A stretch of DNA of 64,000 nt from Nitrosarchaeum sp. (GTDB taxonomy: Archaea; Thermoproteota; Nitrososphaeria; Nitrososphaerales; Nitrosopumilaceae): the NCBI RefSeq assembly GCF_035968265.1, contig NZ_JAVYIM010000002.1, forward strand, positions 186,001 to 250,000, read 5' to 3'. A program made the position numbers and the translations under genes. Under the pieces are notes generated by a model. The model did no database searches, was not told the DNA's origin, and worked only from the letters and a program-made list of their open reading frames with translations. Positions within the stretch are counted from its first letter, which is position 1; each line of letters starts with the position of its first letter. Below are positions 6,172 to 12,205 of this stretch, in pieces.

Positions 6172-7152
6172 CTACACGCTTCTTTTTACTACAAAATCTA
6201 AAAGATCTATTAATTCTGTTTTAGCAGTACCTGAATAATTTGAAAGCGATTTTTTTGCCATTTCTGCATAATGTAAAGCCTGCCTTCTTACCTCTTTCTC
6301 TATTCCAAGTGATCGAATAACATCTACAGCTTTTTCTAGCTCATTTTTACTTGCTTTTGGATTTCCAAATGCTTTTAGAATCATTTTTCTATCTTCGCCT
6401 TTTGCTAGTTTTATTGCCATGAGGATTGGAAGTGATTTTTTACCTTCTCTAAGATCATTACCGACCGGTTTTTTTGTAATCTTTGAATCTCCCATTACAC
6501 CAATAAGATCATCTGTAATTTGAAAAGCAATTCCTAAATTCTTACCAAAATTTGATAAATTTGAAATATCTTTTTGATTACCTGTTGCACAAATTGCACC
6601 CATCGAACAAGACACATCAAATAATGCAGCAGTTTTTTTACCAATCATTGCGATATACTCGTTTTGTGTAGGGATCCTTTTTTCTTCAGCCATTTTTACA
6701 TCTAATAACTGCCCTTCGCATACATCTACACATGCCTTTGCCAATCTGGAAACTAATTGAACTATTGCATCGTTGGATAATTTTGCATCTGAAATAATTT
6801 GATATGCTTTTGAAAATAATACATCTCCAGCTAGTATTGCAATTGGCATTCCAAATTTTTTATGCACTGTAGGCACTCCGTGACGCATTTCATCATTATC
6901 CATAATGTCATCATGAACTAAAGTAAAGTTATGTATCATTTCTACTGCACTAGCAGCAGGTATTGCAATTGTTGTACTGCCTCCTAATATTTGACAACTC
7001 TTCATTACCATGTGAGGTCTGAGTCTTTTTCCTCCGTGGATGATGAGATGTGATGCTGCATCATATAGCATTTTAGGATCTCCTTTTATCTTAGAATTTA
7101 GATATCTATTGACAATTTTTGCATTTTTTTCAATCGAGTTTGTTTTTTTCAT
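6172..7152 (-). CDS. idsA: Polyprenyl synthase (geranylgeranyl diphosphate synthase)
   Basis: This trans-prenyltransferase condenses IPP with allylic diphosphates to make the C20 chain of archaeal lipids. The first Asp-rich motif is HDDIMD, the second is DDLIGVMGD, and the GGKRLRP substrate loop is present. Phe at the fifth position before the first motif (NFTLVHDD) is the chain-length stop known from archaeal type I enzymes and fits a C20 product. ATG at 7152 overlaps the upstream isomerase stop as ATGA, a better start than ATG at 7167. It is the last gene of the isoprenoid operon. Confidence 0.93.
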   Translation of the reverse strand: MKKTNSIEKNAKIVNRYLNSKIKGDPKMLYDAASHLIIHGGKRLRPHMVMKSCQILGGSTTIAIPAASAVEMIHNFTLVHDDIMDNDEMRHGVPTVHKKFGMPIAILAGDVLFSKAYQIISDAKLSNDAIVQLVSRLAKACVDVCEGQLLDVKMAEEKRIPTQNEYIAMIGKKTAALFDVSCSMGAICATGNQKDISNLSNFGKNLGIAFQITDDLIGVMGDSKITKKPVGNDLREGKKSLPILMAIKLAKGEDRKMILKAFGNPKASKNELEKAVDVIRSLGIEKEVRRQALHYAEMAKKSLSNYSGTAKTELIDLLDFVVKRSV

Positions 7153-7790
7153 ATTATCAATCTCCATTTATCATCTGGAAGATGATTTTGTATTGCTTTT
7201 TTCAATTCTGTTTGCAAATCTGAATTAATCCAAGATGATAAAATATCTTTATATTTTTCTAACATTTTATTTTCAGACCTGTCTAGAAATATCAATGCAA
7301 TTAACATCCATGGACAATAAATTTTTGGATTGTTTTTAATTTCAGAAAGAAGTTCAGATGCTGAAATCCATTTTATTTCATCTATTTCTCCTTCTATCAT
7401 TTTAAATTTAGTTGATTCATCAACAATCCCAATTAGAGTCCCACAAATTTCGTTCTCAGAACCAATATTTTTGTAAGGTACATGATATTCAAACTTCATT
7501 AAATAATCCATTTTACAAGAAATGCCAACTTCTTCCGGCATTCTTCGCTCAGCTGACGATATGTATGTCTCACCTTCTCTTGGATGACTAGCTACTGTTC
7601 CATCCCAATCTTCTGGCCATAGCATTTTTTCTTTTGCTCTTCTTGTTAGAACTAATCTTCCATTTTTATCAAATAGCAAGGCTGTAAATGCTCTATGAAG
7701 TTTTCCATTTGGTAAATGGCATTTTACCTTTTCTTCAGAACCTATAGGATTATCGTTTTCATCAACCAAAATTACATATTCATCAGACAT
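7149..7790 (-). CDS. idi: Nudix-type isopentenyl-diphosphate isomerase (IDI-1-like), catalytic Cys replaced
   Basis: This 213-residue Nudix protein lies between isopentenyl phosphate kinase and the prenyl synthase, exactly where an IPP/DMAPP isomerase is expected. The metal ligands of type I isomerase are kept: His25, His32, His69 and the ENE pair near residues 112-114. The WP..W signature and the EE pair of the Nudix box are present. However, the conserved catalytic Cys of the N-x-x-C-x-H-P motif (Cys67 of E. coli) is Ala67 in GTVASHP. With start ATG 7790 the numbering matches E. coli, which supports that start over 7820. Activity as an isomerase is therefore uncertain. Confidence 0.8.
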   Translation of the reverse strand: MSDEYVILVDENDNPIGSEEKVKCHLPNGKLHRAFTALLFDKNGRLVLTRRAKEKMLWPEDWDGTVASHPREGETYISSAERRMPEEVGISCKMDYLMKFEYHVPYKNIGSENEICGTLIGIVDESTKFKMIEGEIDEIKWISASELLSEIKNNPKIYCPWMLIALIFLDRSENKMLEKYKDILSSWINSDLQTELKKAIQNHLPDDKWRLII

Positions 7791-8535
7791 TTTTTTTACC
7801 TCTGAACAATGTTCCTTCATACTTGTTGTTTTTAACCGCTTTCACTATTCTTTCTGGTTTGTTACCGTTTACAAAAAAAACATTCATTCCCATTTTTGCA
7901 ATGTTAGATGCTTCATCTACCTTTCTAGTCATTCCCCCTGTCACATCCATTTTGTTTTCAGAAATTTTAGGATTTTCTCCTTTTAACTCATAAATTAATT
8001 TTTTAGTTTTTAGATCTGAGTATAACCCATCTTCATTTAAAGCAAAAATTACTAATCTTGGTTTTAAAATTTTTGCTAAGTGAGTCATTATTTTATCTCC
8101 TGATAAAATGTATGTTTTCTTATTTCCATGCCAAAGTGCATCTCCATACGTGATTGGTATTAATCCCGATTTTGCAATTTCAGTTATTTCTTTTACTTTT
8201 TTTATCACTGGGATGTTCTTTGACATGAAATCTGTTGGAGGAAGAGAGTATGGATTCATCTTATTTTTTACAAATGCATTTAATATGATTTTGTTAAGAT
8301 CAATCATTGAATTTTTAACTACAGCAACTCCATGCATATCATATTTTTTTGGTTTAGTATGCATGTCATATTTTACAGACCAATAATGCCCAAATGATCC
8401 TCCTCCATGAACAATAATTATTGGTTCATTAATTTTCTTCAAATTTTTAGCAATGTTTTCAACAACTTTTTTTCTGGGACTGAGTGGTTTTTCTTTATTT
8501 GTGATAATAGAACCTCCTAATTTTATGAGAATCAT
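7783..8535 (-). CDS. ipk: Isopentenyl phosphate kinase
   Basis: This 250-residue amino-acid-kinase-fold enzyme phosphorylates isopentenyl phosphate to IPP, the last step of the archaeal mevalonate pathway. The N-terminal LIKLGGSIIT (ATP-phosphate loop), the VHGGGSFGHYW segment with the catalytic His, and the VTGGMTRKVDEA segment near the C-terminus are all typical. It overlaps the downstream isomerase by 8 nt and follows mevalonate kinase by about 23 nt, so it is part of one operon. Confidence 0.93.
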   Translation of the reverse strand: MILIKLGGSIITNKEKPLSPRKKVVENIAKNLKKINEPIIIVHGGGSFGHYWSVKYDMHTKPKKYDMHGVAVVKNSMIDLNKIILNAFVKNKMNPYSLPPTDFMSKNIPVIKKVKEITEIAKSGLIPITYGDALWHGNKKTYILSGDKIMTHLAKILKPRLVIFALNEDGLYSDLKTKKLIYELKGENPKISENKMDVTGGMTRKVDEASNIAKMGMNVFFVNGNKPERIVKAVKNNKYEGTLFRGKKNV

Positions 8536-8558: not shown

Positions 8559-9506
8559 TTAAAAAGTATCCAATCCTTTAAAATCAATTTTTACAGAAAA
8601 GCATTCATAGTCTTTCATCTTTAATTCTGAAATAATTTTTTCTAAATTTGATTCATCAGATAAAGCAATAATACATCCACCTCCACCTGCACCCGTAATT
8701 TTTGCCCCAAATGACGAATTTTCTGCTATTTTTATCATTTTTCGTAATTTTTCATTAGAGATGCCTATCATTTCTAAAAATTCTTGATTGTCCTTCATAC
8801 ATTTACCCAATCCCTGTAAATCATTGTTTTTTAACATGATGCTAACACGATTTACTAACTCTAATTCTTTTTGGCACATAATGGAAAATTTTTCTTCATT
8901 TTTTTCTTTGAATTGTTTAACATTTGACACAACCACCTCTGTTGAATGCTCAATGTTAGAATTTGCAATAACGAGGTGAAAGTTTGGTTCAGATTTAATT
9001 TGAGAGAATCCTTTTTCCTTATCGTACTCCATCAGTCCACCAAACGTACAAACTGTGCAATCTGCTCCTGATGTATTTTGAAAAATTGTTCTTTCTGCTT
9101 CTATGGCTAACTCTAAAATTTTATCTTTATTGGTTTTCTCAAATAATTTGGATATTGCAGCTGCACCTGCTACGCAACATGCAGATGATGATCCTAATCC
9201 TACTCCCGTCGGAATTTCTGATTTTACATAAATCTTAATTCCCTCTGATTGATTGTGTTTTTTAATCATTTTATTTGCTAAATATACAAATGGTTTTAAT
9301 GGCGAACTTATTTCATTCATTGATTTATTGGGTGAAACTTCTAATTCTCCGATGTTTGATTTAATTATAATTTTGTTTTCAGGAATTCTTTCAGCAGTGA
9401 CTATAACTCTTTTATCAATAGCACAAAGAATTGCTTTTATTCCATACACAACAAAATGTTCTCCAAAAAGAATGACCTTTCCAGGTGCAGAAGCTTTAGA
9501 AATCAA
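8559..9506 (-). CDS. mvk: Mevalonate kinase
   Basis: This 315-residue GHMP kinase phosphorylates mevalonate. It shows the N-terminal SAPGKVILFGEHFVVYG motif, the ATP-binding PTGVGLGSSSA loop (about residue 95) and the C-terminal KITGAGGGGCI motif. The protein is soluble and of normal length for archaeal MVK. It overlaps the upstream MEMO gene by 4 nt (ATGA type) and feeds the next enzymes of the operon; the phosphomevalonate-handling steps must be encoded elsewhere. Confidence 0.95.
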   Translation of the reverse strand: MISKASAPGKVILFGEHFVVYGIKAILCAIDKRVIVTAERIPENKIIIKSNIGELEVSPNKSMNEISSPLKPFVYLANKMIKKHNQSEGIKIYVKSEIPTGVGLGSSSACCVAGAAAISKLFEKTNKDKILELAIEAERTIFQNTSGADCTVCTFGGLMEYDKEKGFSQIKSEPNFHLVIANSNIEHSTEVVVSNVKQFKEKNEEKFSIMCQKELELVNRVSIMLKNNDLQGLGKCMKDNQEFLEMIGISNEKLRKMIKIAENSSFGAKITGAGGGGCIIALSDESNLEKIISELKMKDYECFSVKIDFKGLDTF

Positions 9507-10336
9507 GTGAAAATGATCGACCCATATCCAACAACAGAACTCTTATCTCCTGAAATATCTCCACTTGTGGCATATTTTAATAGCTCTCCTTTTGTTGCAC
9601 CGATCTCTTTACATGCAATCATTGTTGATGCGATGGCACCATATCCACATGCACTAATGTCTCTTTTATGTAAAACATCATAAAATCTATCTACATCTAA
9701 CTCTAAAATAGGCTCAATTAATGCTGAATCTTGTTCATGTGCAAACTCGTTAGACTCGTAATGTGTAAAATCTGAAGAACCTATGATCATGACTTTGTTT
9801 TTCTGAGCTATTTTTGCCACGGCAGTACCCACTTTAATTGCAATTTCTTTACTCTGATTTATTAAAGCAATGGGAACTATTTTGAAATTTGCTGCAATCT
9901 CTTGTAACATTGGAATTTGTACTTCAAGACTGTGTTCTCTTGAATGAGAAAAATTATCTATTTCAATTACATCTGTTAATTTTGAAATCTCTTCTGTAAT
10001 TTCAGAATCCACTTCGACTTCTCCTAGAGGTGTTTCCCATTTAGTATCTATCATTGTTGCTACACTACTTCCTATTCCCCAATGATTTGGTCCTATGATG
10101 ATGAATAGATCTGGTAGGTCTGAAGATATTTCATAAAATGAGTTACATGCTATTGGACCTGAATATACATATCCTGCATGTGGGCAAATCACTCCAAAAA
10201 TTTTTTTTTTGATATTTGATGGTGGGATTTTACCTGGACCGAAATTATGCAGAAAACATTCTTTGATTACTTTTTTTAATTCTTTTTTTTCATTTGGATA
10301 GAACATTCCGGCTACTGCCGGCGTTCTAATTTGCAT
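9503..10336 (-). CDS. MEMO1/AmmeMemoRadiSam-type protein
   Basis: This 277-residue protein is of the MEMO family, related in fold to extradiol dioxygenases. Family motifs are RTPAVAGMFYP at the N-terminus, CPHAGYVYSGP (metal-binding His), REHSLEVQIPML (HSLEVQ hallmark) and SSDFTHY. The chemistry of archaeal members is not settled. Its place between rpsB and mevalonate kinase is widely conserved in archaea, and it overlaps rpsB by one base and mvk by four, so it is firmly in the operon. Confidence 0.92.
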   Translation of the reverse strand: MQIRTPAVAGMFYPNEKKELKKVIKECFLHNFGPGKIPPSNIKKKIFGVICPHAGYVYSGPIACNSFYEISSDLPDLFIIIGPNHWGIGSSVATMIDTKWETPLGEVEVDSEITEEISKLTDVIEIDNFSHSREHSLEVQIPMLQEIAANFKIVPIALINQSKEIAIKVGTAVAKIAQKNKVMIIGSSDFTHYESNEFAHEQDSALIEPILELDVDRFYDVLHKRDISACGYGAIASTMIACKEIGATKGELLKYATSGDISGDKSSVVGYGSIIFT

Positions 10337-10959
10337 TACTCTATTTCCTCTTCCGTTATCTTTGTCTCAAAATCATCGATTTCGTATTTCATTGGTTCAT
10401 CTTCTTTTAATTCTCCTCTTTCGATTAGAATTTGACGAACCAATAACCAATATACCGTGGCAAGAGCTTTTCTTCCTCTGTTGTTTGCAGGAATAATTAC
10501 ATCAAGTTTTGATGTAATGTTATCTGTATTTGAAATTCCGATTACTGGGATGCCTGCATTTGTAGCTTCTGTAATTGCTTGTACATCCACTTGAGGATCG
10601 GAAATTAAAACTAATTTTGGTTCAATATAATATGGTAAAGATGGATTTGTAAGAGTTCCAGGCATAAATCTACCAAGTAATTTTTTAGAACCTAGCATTT
10701 CGCAAAATTTCTCAATTGGAGTATTGGCATACTGTCTAGCTGAGCATACAATTAGCTTATCTGTTCCTAAACGATTGATAAATTTAGCTGCTATTTTGAT
10801 TTTTTCTAATGTTATATCAATATCTAACATGTAAAGTCCTTCAGGACTGGCTTTTGTGATAAACGGAGTCATGAATTTCGTCTTTACTGGAGTTCCTACT
10901 CTGATTCCAGTAGATAGGATCTTCTTTTTGATATCTGTGGATTCTGCTTGTTCACTCAT
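10336..10959 (-). CDS. rpsB: 30S ribosomal protein S2
   Basis: This 207-residue protein is the archaeal S2p/SA-type ribosomal protein. Recognisable parts are the GTPVKTKFM N-terminus, RFMPGTLTNPSLPYYIEPKLVLISDP and IPVIGISNTDN, all conserved S2 segments. It has an acidic tail of about 25 residues. S2 assembles late on the small-subunit head/body junction. It follows enolase by 7 nt, and the next gene overlaps its stop, so translation is probably coupled. Confidence 0.97.
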   Translation of the reverse strand: MSEQAESTDIKKKILSTGIRVGTPVKTKFMTPFITKASPEGLYMLDIDITLEKIKIAAKFINRLGTDKLIVCSARQYANTPIEKFCEMLGSKKLLGRFMPGTLTNPSLPYYIEPKLVLISDPQVDVQAITEATNAGIPVIGISNTDNITSKLDVIIPANNRGRKALATVYWLLVRQILIERGELKEDEPMKYEIDDFETKITEEEIE

Positions 10960-10966
10960 AGCGATT

Positions 10967-12205
10967 TTAAATCTCTGCCATACCGCGTATTAAATCATGC
11001 TCTGATAGGCGTATAAGCTCGTTTAGCTTTGCGACTCTTTCTCCACCTACTATGCCAACTTTGAGCATTTTTGACTTTGTTGCTAATCCTATGTGGGCAA
11101 TATGCGAATCTGTAGATTCTCCAGATCTATGTGATGTGATTAATTTTATATTATTTTGGTTAGCTACTTTGGCAAATTCAAATGCATCATAAAGACTACC
11201 TGCCTGATTGACTTTTAGGATTGCAGCATTACATGATTTCATGTTGATTGCCTTTGTTAGAATGTCTTTATTTGTAACCGTTAGATCATCTCCTGTTACT
11301 AATGTTTTTGGAAATTTAGTAGTTAATTCTGCCATGTCTTCAAAAGCTTCTTCATGAACTGCATCTTCTGCATAAATTAATTTGTATTTTTTAATAATAT
11401 TTGCTGCAAATTCAATTTGTTCTTCTGAAGAATTCACAAATCCTGCTCTTTCATAAACATATTTCTCTTTTTCTTCACTCCATTGAGTAGATGATGCAAA
11501 ATCTACTCCTAATGCCACTTCTTTACCTAATGTAAATCCCAAATTCTCACAAGCTTTTGCTGAAAGTTCTAATGCTTTTTCATTTTTTAATTTTGGAGCC
11601 CATCCCCCTTCATCCCCTCGTCCATTAGTAAAACTTGGATCTTCTTTTTCCAAAATACGACGTAATTCCTTATGAACTGCCAAATTAGTTTCAATTGCAT
11701 CTCTAATTGTTTTTGTTCCTATGGCACAAATCAAAATTTCTTGTATATCTGGAGTTCCTGGTCCTGCATGAGCCCCTCCTCCTAAAATATTTCCTAAAGG
11801 AAACGGAAATTTGAAAGATGACTCTGATGATAATGTTTGAAACAAAGAAGTGTCATTTGCTTTTGATGCTGATTCCATTGAAGCAATACTTACTGCAAAT
11901 GCAAGGGCACCTCCAATTTTTGCATAATTTGAAGATTGATCTATACTTCTTAGTGTATCGTGTATGGTCTTCAAATCTGACGATTCTAAACCAATAAATT
12001 TTTGAGCATTCTCATTTAATATTCTAAGGCTTTCTTCAGGTTTTTCATTTGGGAAACTTACTGCTTCATACTTTCCAACACTTGCTCCAGAAGGTGCACA
12101 AACTCTACCTAGAAATTTATTTTCTGATATGATATCAACTTCGATAGTTTTACTTCCACGACTATTGTAAATAATACGTCCATTAATGGATGTTATTTTT
12201 GACAA
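10967..12205 (-). CDS. eno: Enolase
   Basis: This 412-residue enzyme interconverts 2-phosphoglycerate and phosphoenolpyruvate. The N-terminal RGSKTIEVDI and SGASVGKYEA loops, the metal ligands in VDFASS, YAEDAVHEE and VTGDDLTVTN, and the C-terminal SHRSGESTD active-site segment are all visible. The length is normal. Its position between rpoN and rpsB is the usual archaeal arrangement. In an autotroph it would serve gluconeogenesis from the 3-hydroxypropionate/4-hydroxybutyrate cycle, which is inference. Confidence 0.97.
   Translation of the reverse strand: MSKITSINGRIIYNSRGSKTIEVDIISENKFLGRVCAPSGASVGKYEAVSFPNEKPEESLRILNENAQKFIGLESSDLKTIHDTLRSIDQSSNYAKIGGALAFAVSIASMESASKANDTSLFQTLSSESSFKFPFPLGNILGGGAHAGPGTPDIQEILICAIGTKTIRDAIETNLAVHKELRRILEKEDPSFTNGRGDEGGWAPKLKNEKALELSAKACENLGFTLGKEVALGVDFASSTQWSEEKEKYVYERAGFVNSSEEQIEFAANIIKKYKLIYAEDAVHEEAFEDMAELTTKFPKTLVTGDDLTVTNKDILTKAINMKSCNAAILKVNQAGSLYDAFEFAKVANQNNIKLITSHRSGESTDSHIAHIGLATKSKMLKVGIVGGERVAKLNELIRLSEHDLIRGMAEI

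Follow-up and report, generated by a model that had tools for sequence, protein, structure and literature searches.

Can a type I isopentenyl diphosphate (IPP) isomerase (IDI1) work without its catalytic cysteine? The question is raised by a gene in the isoprenoid operon of Nitrosarchaeum sp., a member of the Nitrosopumilaceae, within the window analysed here (the whole stretch of 64,000 nucleotides). In the textbook account of IDI1, Cys67 and Glu116 form its acid-base pair, and engineered Cys-to-Ala changes in the yeast and E. coli enzymes have been reported as inactive. The archaeal protein has alanine at this position. The gene, the two codons of interest and the neighbouring genes are as follows.

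6172..7167, minus strand: GGPP synthase-like prenyl diphosphate synthase (GGPPS), a conserved neighbour (NF041003, 311 bits, under the model cut-off of 500)
7149..7790, minus strand: gene of a type I IPP isomerase-like protein lacking Cys67, 213 aa (NF002995, TIGR02150, VIA)
7443..7445, minus strand: codon of Cys116, which is Cys118 in E. coli and a candidate replacement thiol; within ENEIC it lies beside catalytic Glu114 (E. coli Glu116); coordinates counted from E112 at 7457
7590..7592, minus strand: Ala67 codon, replacing catalytic Cys67 (alignment and codon count)
7783..8535, minus strand: isopentenyl phosphate kinase (IPK; NF040647, 201 bits, cut-off 120)
8559..9506, minus strand: mevalonate kinase (MVK; TIGR00549, 224 bits, cut-off 163)
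9503..10336, minus strand: MEMO family protein, operon neighbour (NF001987, 318 bits, cut-off 295)
10336..10959, minus strand: ribosomal protein uS2, operon neighbour (TIGR01012, 224 bits, cut-off 211.5)
10967..12205, minus strand: enolase, operon neighbour (TIGR01060, 343 bits, cut-off 300)

The isomerase gene is located between IPK and the GGPP synthase-like gene, downstream of MVK, MEMO, uS2 and enolase; its start is overlapped by the IPK gene by 8 bp and its 3' end by the GGPP synthase-like gene by 19 bp. The translated product begins with MSDEYVILVDENDNPIG and contains the internal stretch WDGTVASHPREGE. A further in-frame ATG is present upstream at 7820, and the start at 7790 agrees with the N-terminus of relatives. 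In several other Nitrosopumilaceae genera, the MEMO gene was undetected in the enolase-uS2-MVK-IPK cluster (L142, L145, L147-L149, L151, L156, L157).

By profile and fold, the 7149-7790 protein is a type I IPP isomerase. It scores over both curated equivalog cut-offs (NF002995, 136.3 against 127 bits; TIGR02150, 116.1 against 105.8 bits), and its AF2 model (pLDDT 96.9) retrieved IDI1 structures first in Foldseek (E-values 1e-16 to 1e-11), those of E. coli and human being nearest, before YfcD and DR0079. VIA alignment superposed 174 residues on E. coli IDI (1hx3; Z 21.7, rmsd 2.4), with 1nfs also matched; Z was about 21 for both the E. coli and human enzymes. Fold alone cannot separate an isomerase from hydrolase-like proteins, because E. 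coli YfcD (2fkb) scores Z 20.5. These YfcD/DR0079-type Nudix hydrolases share with the Ala67 protein the Nudix fold, His25, His32, His69 and, in most cases, Cys24; the archaeal ones seen have Thr or Ser at position 67, but differ in having Glu83 and mostly in lacking Tyr104 and Trp161. No viral relatives of the Ala67 protein (P0001) were found. Separately, a contig filed as viral (L284, IMGVR_UViG_3300021431_003109) encodes a Cys67 IDI1 (WSNACCSHP), and Cys67 IDI1-family genes on the E. coli plasmids pAA and pHH35 (L219, L279) have as neighbour a gene whose annotation reads "class 1 isoprenoid biosynthesis enzyme".

Beyond the altered motif around position 67, the active site is intact. A phmmer alignment to E. 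coli IDI is free of gaps to about residue 92 and places Ala opposite Cys67 and Gly opposite Asn64, with Asp in place of Thr63; among E. coli chains, the Ala67-bearing 1ow2 and 1hx3 (NSVAGHP) outscore the wild type. The metal ligands His25, His32, His69, Glu114 and Glu116 are all present, the two glutamates (E112 and E114 of the window protein) falling within ENEIC. The initial annotation had described the type I ligands and an isomerase-like protein of the isoprenoid operon in which Ala replaces Cys67; alignment, profile scores and neighbours bear this out. Catalytic Glu116, Tyr104 and Trp161 are likewise retained. The Nudix box has the RRxxxExG form (RRMPEEVG), and the hydrolase box GX5EX7REUXEEXGU is not matched: the protein reads SX5EX7RRMPEEVGI, the first Glu of REUXEE being Arg. 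A survey of the Nudix clan distinguishes IDI boxes with RR (RRxxxExG) from hydrolase boxes with RE (PMC5389931). Two further differences from IDI1 are Cys159, which is invariant in the Ala67 group, and a C-terminal extension that runs to residue 213 and in which Trp187 is invariant and Trp209 nearly so; human IDI1 aligns across this extension.

Ala67 is a lineage-wide trait of the Nitrosopumilaceae, not one odd gene. The motif W-D-G-T-x-A-S-H-P occurs in all of the 111 homologues first tabulated except that of an Aenigmatarchaeon with Cys67 (L112), one row being shifted by one residue. In the larger alignment of Nitrosopumilaceae homologues, Asp63, Ala67, Ser68 and Arg83 are each found in 128/128, the last where Nudix hydrolases have Glu, and Gly64 in 127/128 (Ala in L151); the NxxCxHP cysteine of IDI1 is thus missing throughout, and the cysteine at the aligned position that the initial annotation had envisaged as overturning its claim did not appear. 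Alignment gaps aside, the invariant residues of the group are K21, H25, H32, R51, K55, H69, R83, E87, Y104, E114, E116 and W161, which it has in common with IDI1, as it does the role in the operon. At codon 67, the 131 distinct gene copies use GCA (92), GCT (27), GCG (7) and GCC (5). Ala67 is thus under selection, since the DNA varies silently while the residue stays constant. Agreement of these copies across many independent genomes also disposes of the idea that the missing Cys is a sequencing or assembly artefact, for which nothing was found in favour and which is vanishingly improbable.

Besides another catalytic residue or a different mechanism, the initial annotation had allowed that a type II enzyme (IDI2, fni) exists and that the Nudix protein does something else. 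This proposal was rejected by a search of the whole 99.8%-complete genome with the IDI2 profile TIGR02151, in which the best match reached 24.2 bits against a cut-off of 281.3, leaving no clear fni gene; with TIGR02150, the Ala67 gene was the sole match in the same genome. In a census of 232 genomes of the class (completeness at least 90%; family counts made by hand from the IDI1 and IDI2 listings), IDI2 was found in 0/136 Nitrosopumilaceae (f1) genomes and an IDI1-like match in 133/136, all those in the subset whose residues were read having Ala67. Three genomes are without a match: in two of them (G031, G124) a contig ends in or close to the IPK gene, and in G182 IPK was not found. Families f4-f18 have IDI2 in 75/75 genomes (a fragment in G268) and IDI1 above the cut-off in none. 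The IDI2 of one f11 genome (G271:C1:104660-105672) comes as two frames that overlap, the first of them interrupted by an in-frame TGA, which points to a frameshift or assembly error.

The gene also lies at the genomic position that IDI2 has in relatives. IDI2 loci from 23 genomes (25 loci, two genomes being represented twice) have the order (enolase-uS2-MEMO-)MVK-IPK-IDI2-GGPPS as far as the locus extends, with IPK undetected in one (L237) and GGPPS in another (L235). The Ala67 gene takes the slot of IDI2 next to GGPPS in each of the 20 loci read from Nitrosopumilaceae, and IPK was detected upstream in 18 of them. The Ala67 gene therefore sits where related archaea carry IDI2, between IPK and GGPPS, and its product would catalyse the same reaction; the two enzymes belong to unrelated families. 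In 11 loci of f3, f2, G200 and f59, GGPPS follows IPK directly, the intervals being too short for a gene; f2, f3 and f59 genomes with the empty slot lack IDI2 and encode another IDI1-like protein elsewhere, mostly Cys67-less and once with Cys67 (G216). Both states were observed within one genus, where G201 has IDI2 in the slot (L240, G201:C103) and G200 has an empty slot (L167/L224, G200:C91; L249) and a divergent Ser67 IDI1-like protein. A complementary distribution of this kind is evidence that a role was replaced, not of the chemistry involved.

Cys67-less relatives occur in other lineages. In family f3, a Thr67 (T-type) protein is present in 16/19 genomes; of the other three, G216 encodes a Cys67 protein, G200 encodes the Ser67 protein, and G201 relies on IDI2 and lacks IDI1. 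The two f2 genomes encode a divergent Thr67 protein. The T-type proteins resemble the Ala67 protein in having Cys118, R/K83, Y104 and W161 in genomes without IDI2, and the single one scanned (L126) is over both IDI1 cut-offs; they differ in Thr67, Val70, the absence of the C-terminal extension and a position outside the isoprenoid operon. The f3 Thr67 gene (WDVSFTSHV; L126-L139, L161-L166) adjoins a DHH-type phosphoesterase gene in the loci read for this neighbour (L134 by Pfam match; L124 and L137 by sequence likeness). Outside the class, five further genomes without IDI2 were examined: three (f69) have a Cys67 IDI1, and two (f59) have a protein that also carries Ala67 but belongs to a different type (WEFPASH). 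Where a hydrolase-like protein is the sole relative, 12/13 sampled genomes have IDI2, and the exception (G539) is 87% complete. From this pattern outside the class, the absence of IDI2 is predicted by the IDI scaffold (Tyr104, Trp161, no Glu83) and not by Cys67.

Taken with the intact scaffold, these distributions suggest that the Ala67 protein is very probably a functional IPP:DMAPP isomerase that works without Cys67; we infer both its activity and the group that replaces the cysteine. When the aligned proteins that have both Tyr104 and Trp161 are compared, Cys118 (Cys116 in the window protein) is present in 42/43 without Cys67 and in 6/25 with it; the exception (L278) has Glu83, and its genome, G549, encodes a Cys67 IDI1 as well. 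Cys118 is invariant in the A- (Ala67), T-, f2-, WEF- and G200-type proteins, all Cys67-less stand-ins for IDI2. The ENEIC stretch is one continuous strand in the AF2 model; with side chains alternating along it, Cys118 would share a face with Glu114 and Glu116. The search for a conserved Cys or Ser nearby, as advised in the initial annotation, thus yielded the invariant Ser68, common in Cys67 enzymes, and the more telling Cys118, which may replace Cys67 as the catalytic group, a tentative assignment given somewhat less than even weight. The Cys67/Cys118 pattern could also be one of shared descent, because the Cys67-less proteins form only about five groups, possibly related. Cys24 was rejected as a relocated thiol: it occurs in 124/127 A-types and 15/16 T-types, but also in human IDI1 and hydrolase-like proteins, and is not specific.

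A thiol may not be needed at all. Within the reading of an active isomerase, and not exclusive of it, E116 (with Y104) might serve as the single base for the two proton transfers, or the second might fall to a water bound by D63/T65/S68; stereochemistry or pH dependence would then be unlike those of E. coli IDI. This appears a credible minority possibility. All A-, T- and f2-types have Asp63, and WEF has Glu there, whereas Cys67 enzymes have Thr, Ser or Ala; Ser68 is invariant in A- and T-types. The co-occurrence of Cys118 favours a thiol, however, and Asp63 may be ancestral, because it is also found in the hydrolase-like relatives L174 and L220; Asp63 ranks as a weaker candidate than Cys118. 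A different function altogether would follow if the protein were a Nudix prenyl-diphosphate hydrolase, for example converting IPP to isopentenyl phosphate to balance IPK, with DMAPP arising via an unknown route. The adjoining IPK gene, the Nudix fold, the conserved Glu86-Glu87 of the Nudix box and a plant Nudix hydrolase that binds geranyl diphosphate (PDB 6ypf) are all compatible with this function, but Arg at the first Glu of REUxEE in every homologue, as in IDIs, and the retained Trp161 and Tyr104 argue against it. Furthermore, the IDI1 and IDI2 models find no other isomerase, and a hydrolase in the slot exchanged with IDI2 would leave DMAPP unmade, which renders this function improbable. 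Equally, the loss of a residue reported as essential could mark a catalytically dead IDI1 relic, perhaps with a regulatory or scaffolding role, while an unrecognised third isomerase makes DMAPP. This is most improbable given that the remaining active site is fully conserved, that codon 67 varies only silently, that IDI2 is exactly replaced in the operon, and that T-, f2- and WEF-type Cys67-less proteins are found in other lineages without IDI2.

Under the favoured reading of an active isomerase, the organism would have no IPP:DMAPP isomerase other than the Ala67 protein, a type I enzyme with a Nudix fold and divalent metal. Its gene would have displaced the flavin-dependent IDI2 from the operon slot (MVK-IPK-[isomerase]-GGPPS) before the Nitrosopumilaceae diverged from their common ancestor. 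The diphosphate would be held as in E. coli by the metal site (H25, H32, H69, E114, E116) together with K21, R51, K55 and R83, and one proton transfer would be performed by E116 with Y104. The transfer performed by Cys67 in E. coli would be taken over by another group, with Cys118 as first candidate and a water on the invariant D63/T65/S68 as second. As to whether Cys67 was lost or ancestrally absent, the Ala67 clade groups with IDI1 proper (98/91) in a tree built without the motif columns, but AU tests did not reject a single clade of A- and T-types (p 0.11) or one that unites the Cys67 proteins (p 0.375), so that either history fits. It is conceivable, though less likely than not, that type I chemistry can do without Cys67. 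Nitrosopumilaceae and several other archaeal lineages would then have a catalytic solution of their own within this fold (Cys118/Glu116 or thiol-free), and the Cys67 form might be derived and not ancestral.

IDI1 in Thaumarchaeota has been reported as a probable transfer from bacteria (Lombard et al., 2012; PMC3533463), and archaea have been described in a review as IDI2 users (PMC4244643). A search of the available literature for mention of the missing cysteine in these isomerases found none. The locus provides a clear case of one enzyme displacing an unrelated one in an identical operon slot, and a warning that score-based annotation conceals absent catalytic residues. The ammonia-oxidising archaea concerned form a large clade, which appears to depend on a version of IDI1 with a substitution that inactivates the well-studied enzymes, and an essential membrane-lipid building block in marine members is apparently made by an isomerase lacking a supposedly indispensable cysteine. 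If the protein is active, the assigned catalytic residues of IDI1 would need revision; if it is not, the Nitrosopumilaceae would have an unknown route to DMAPP.
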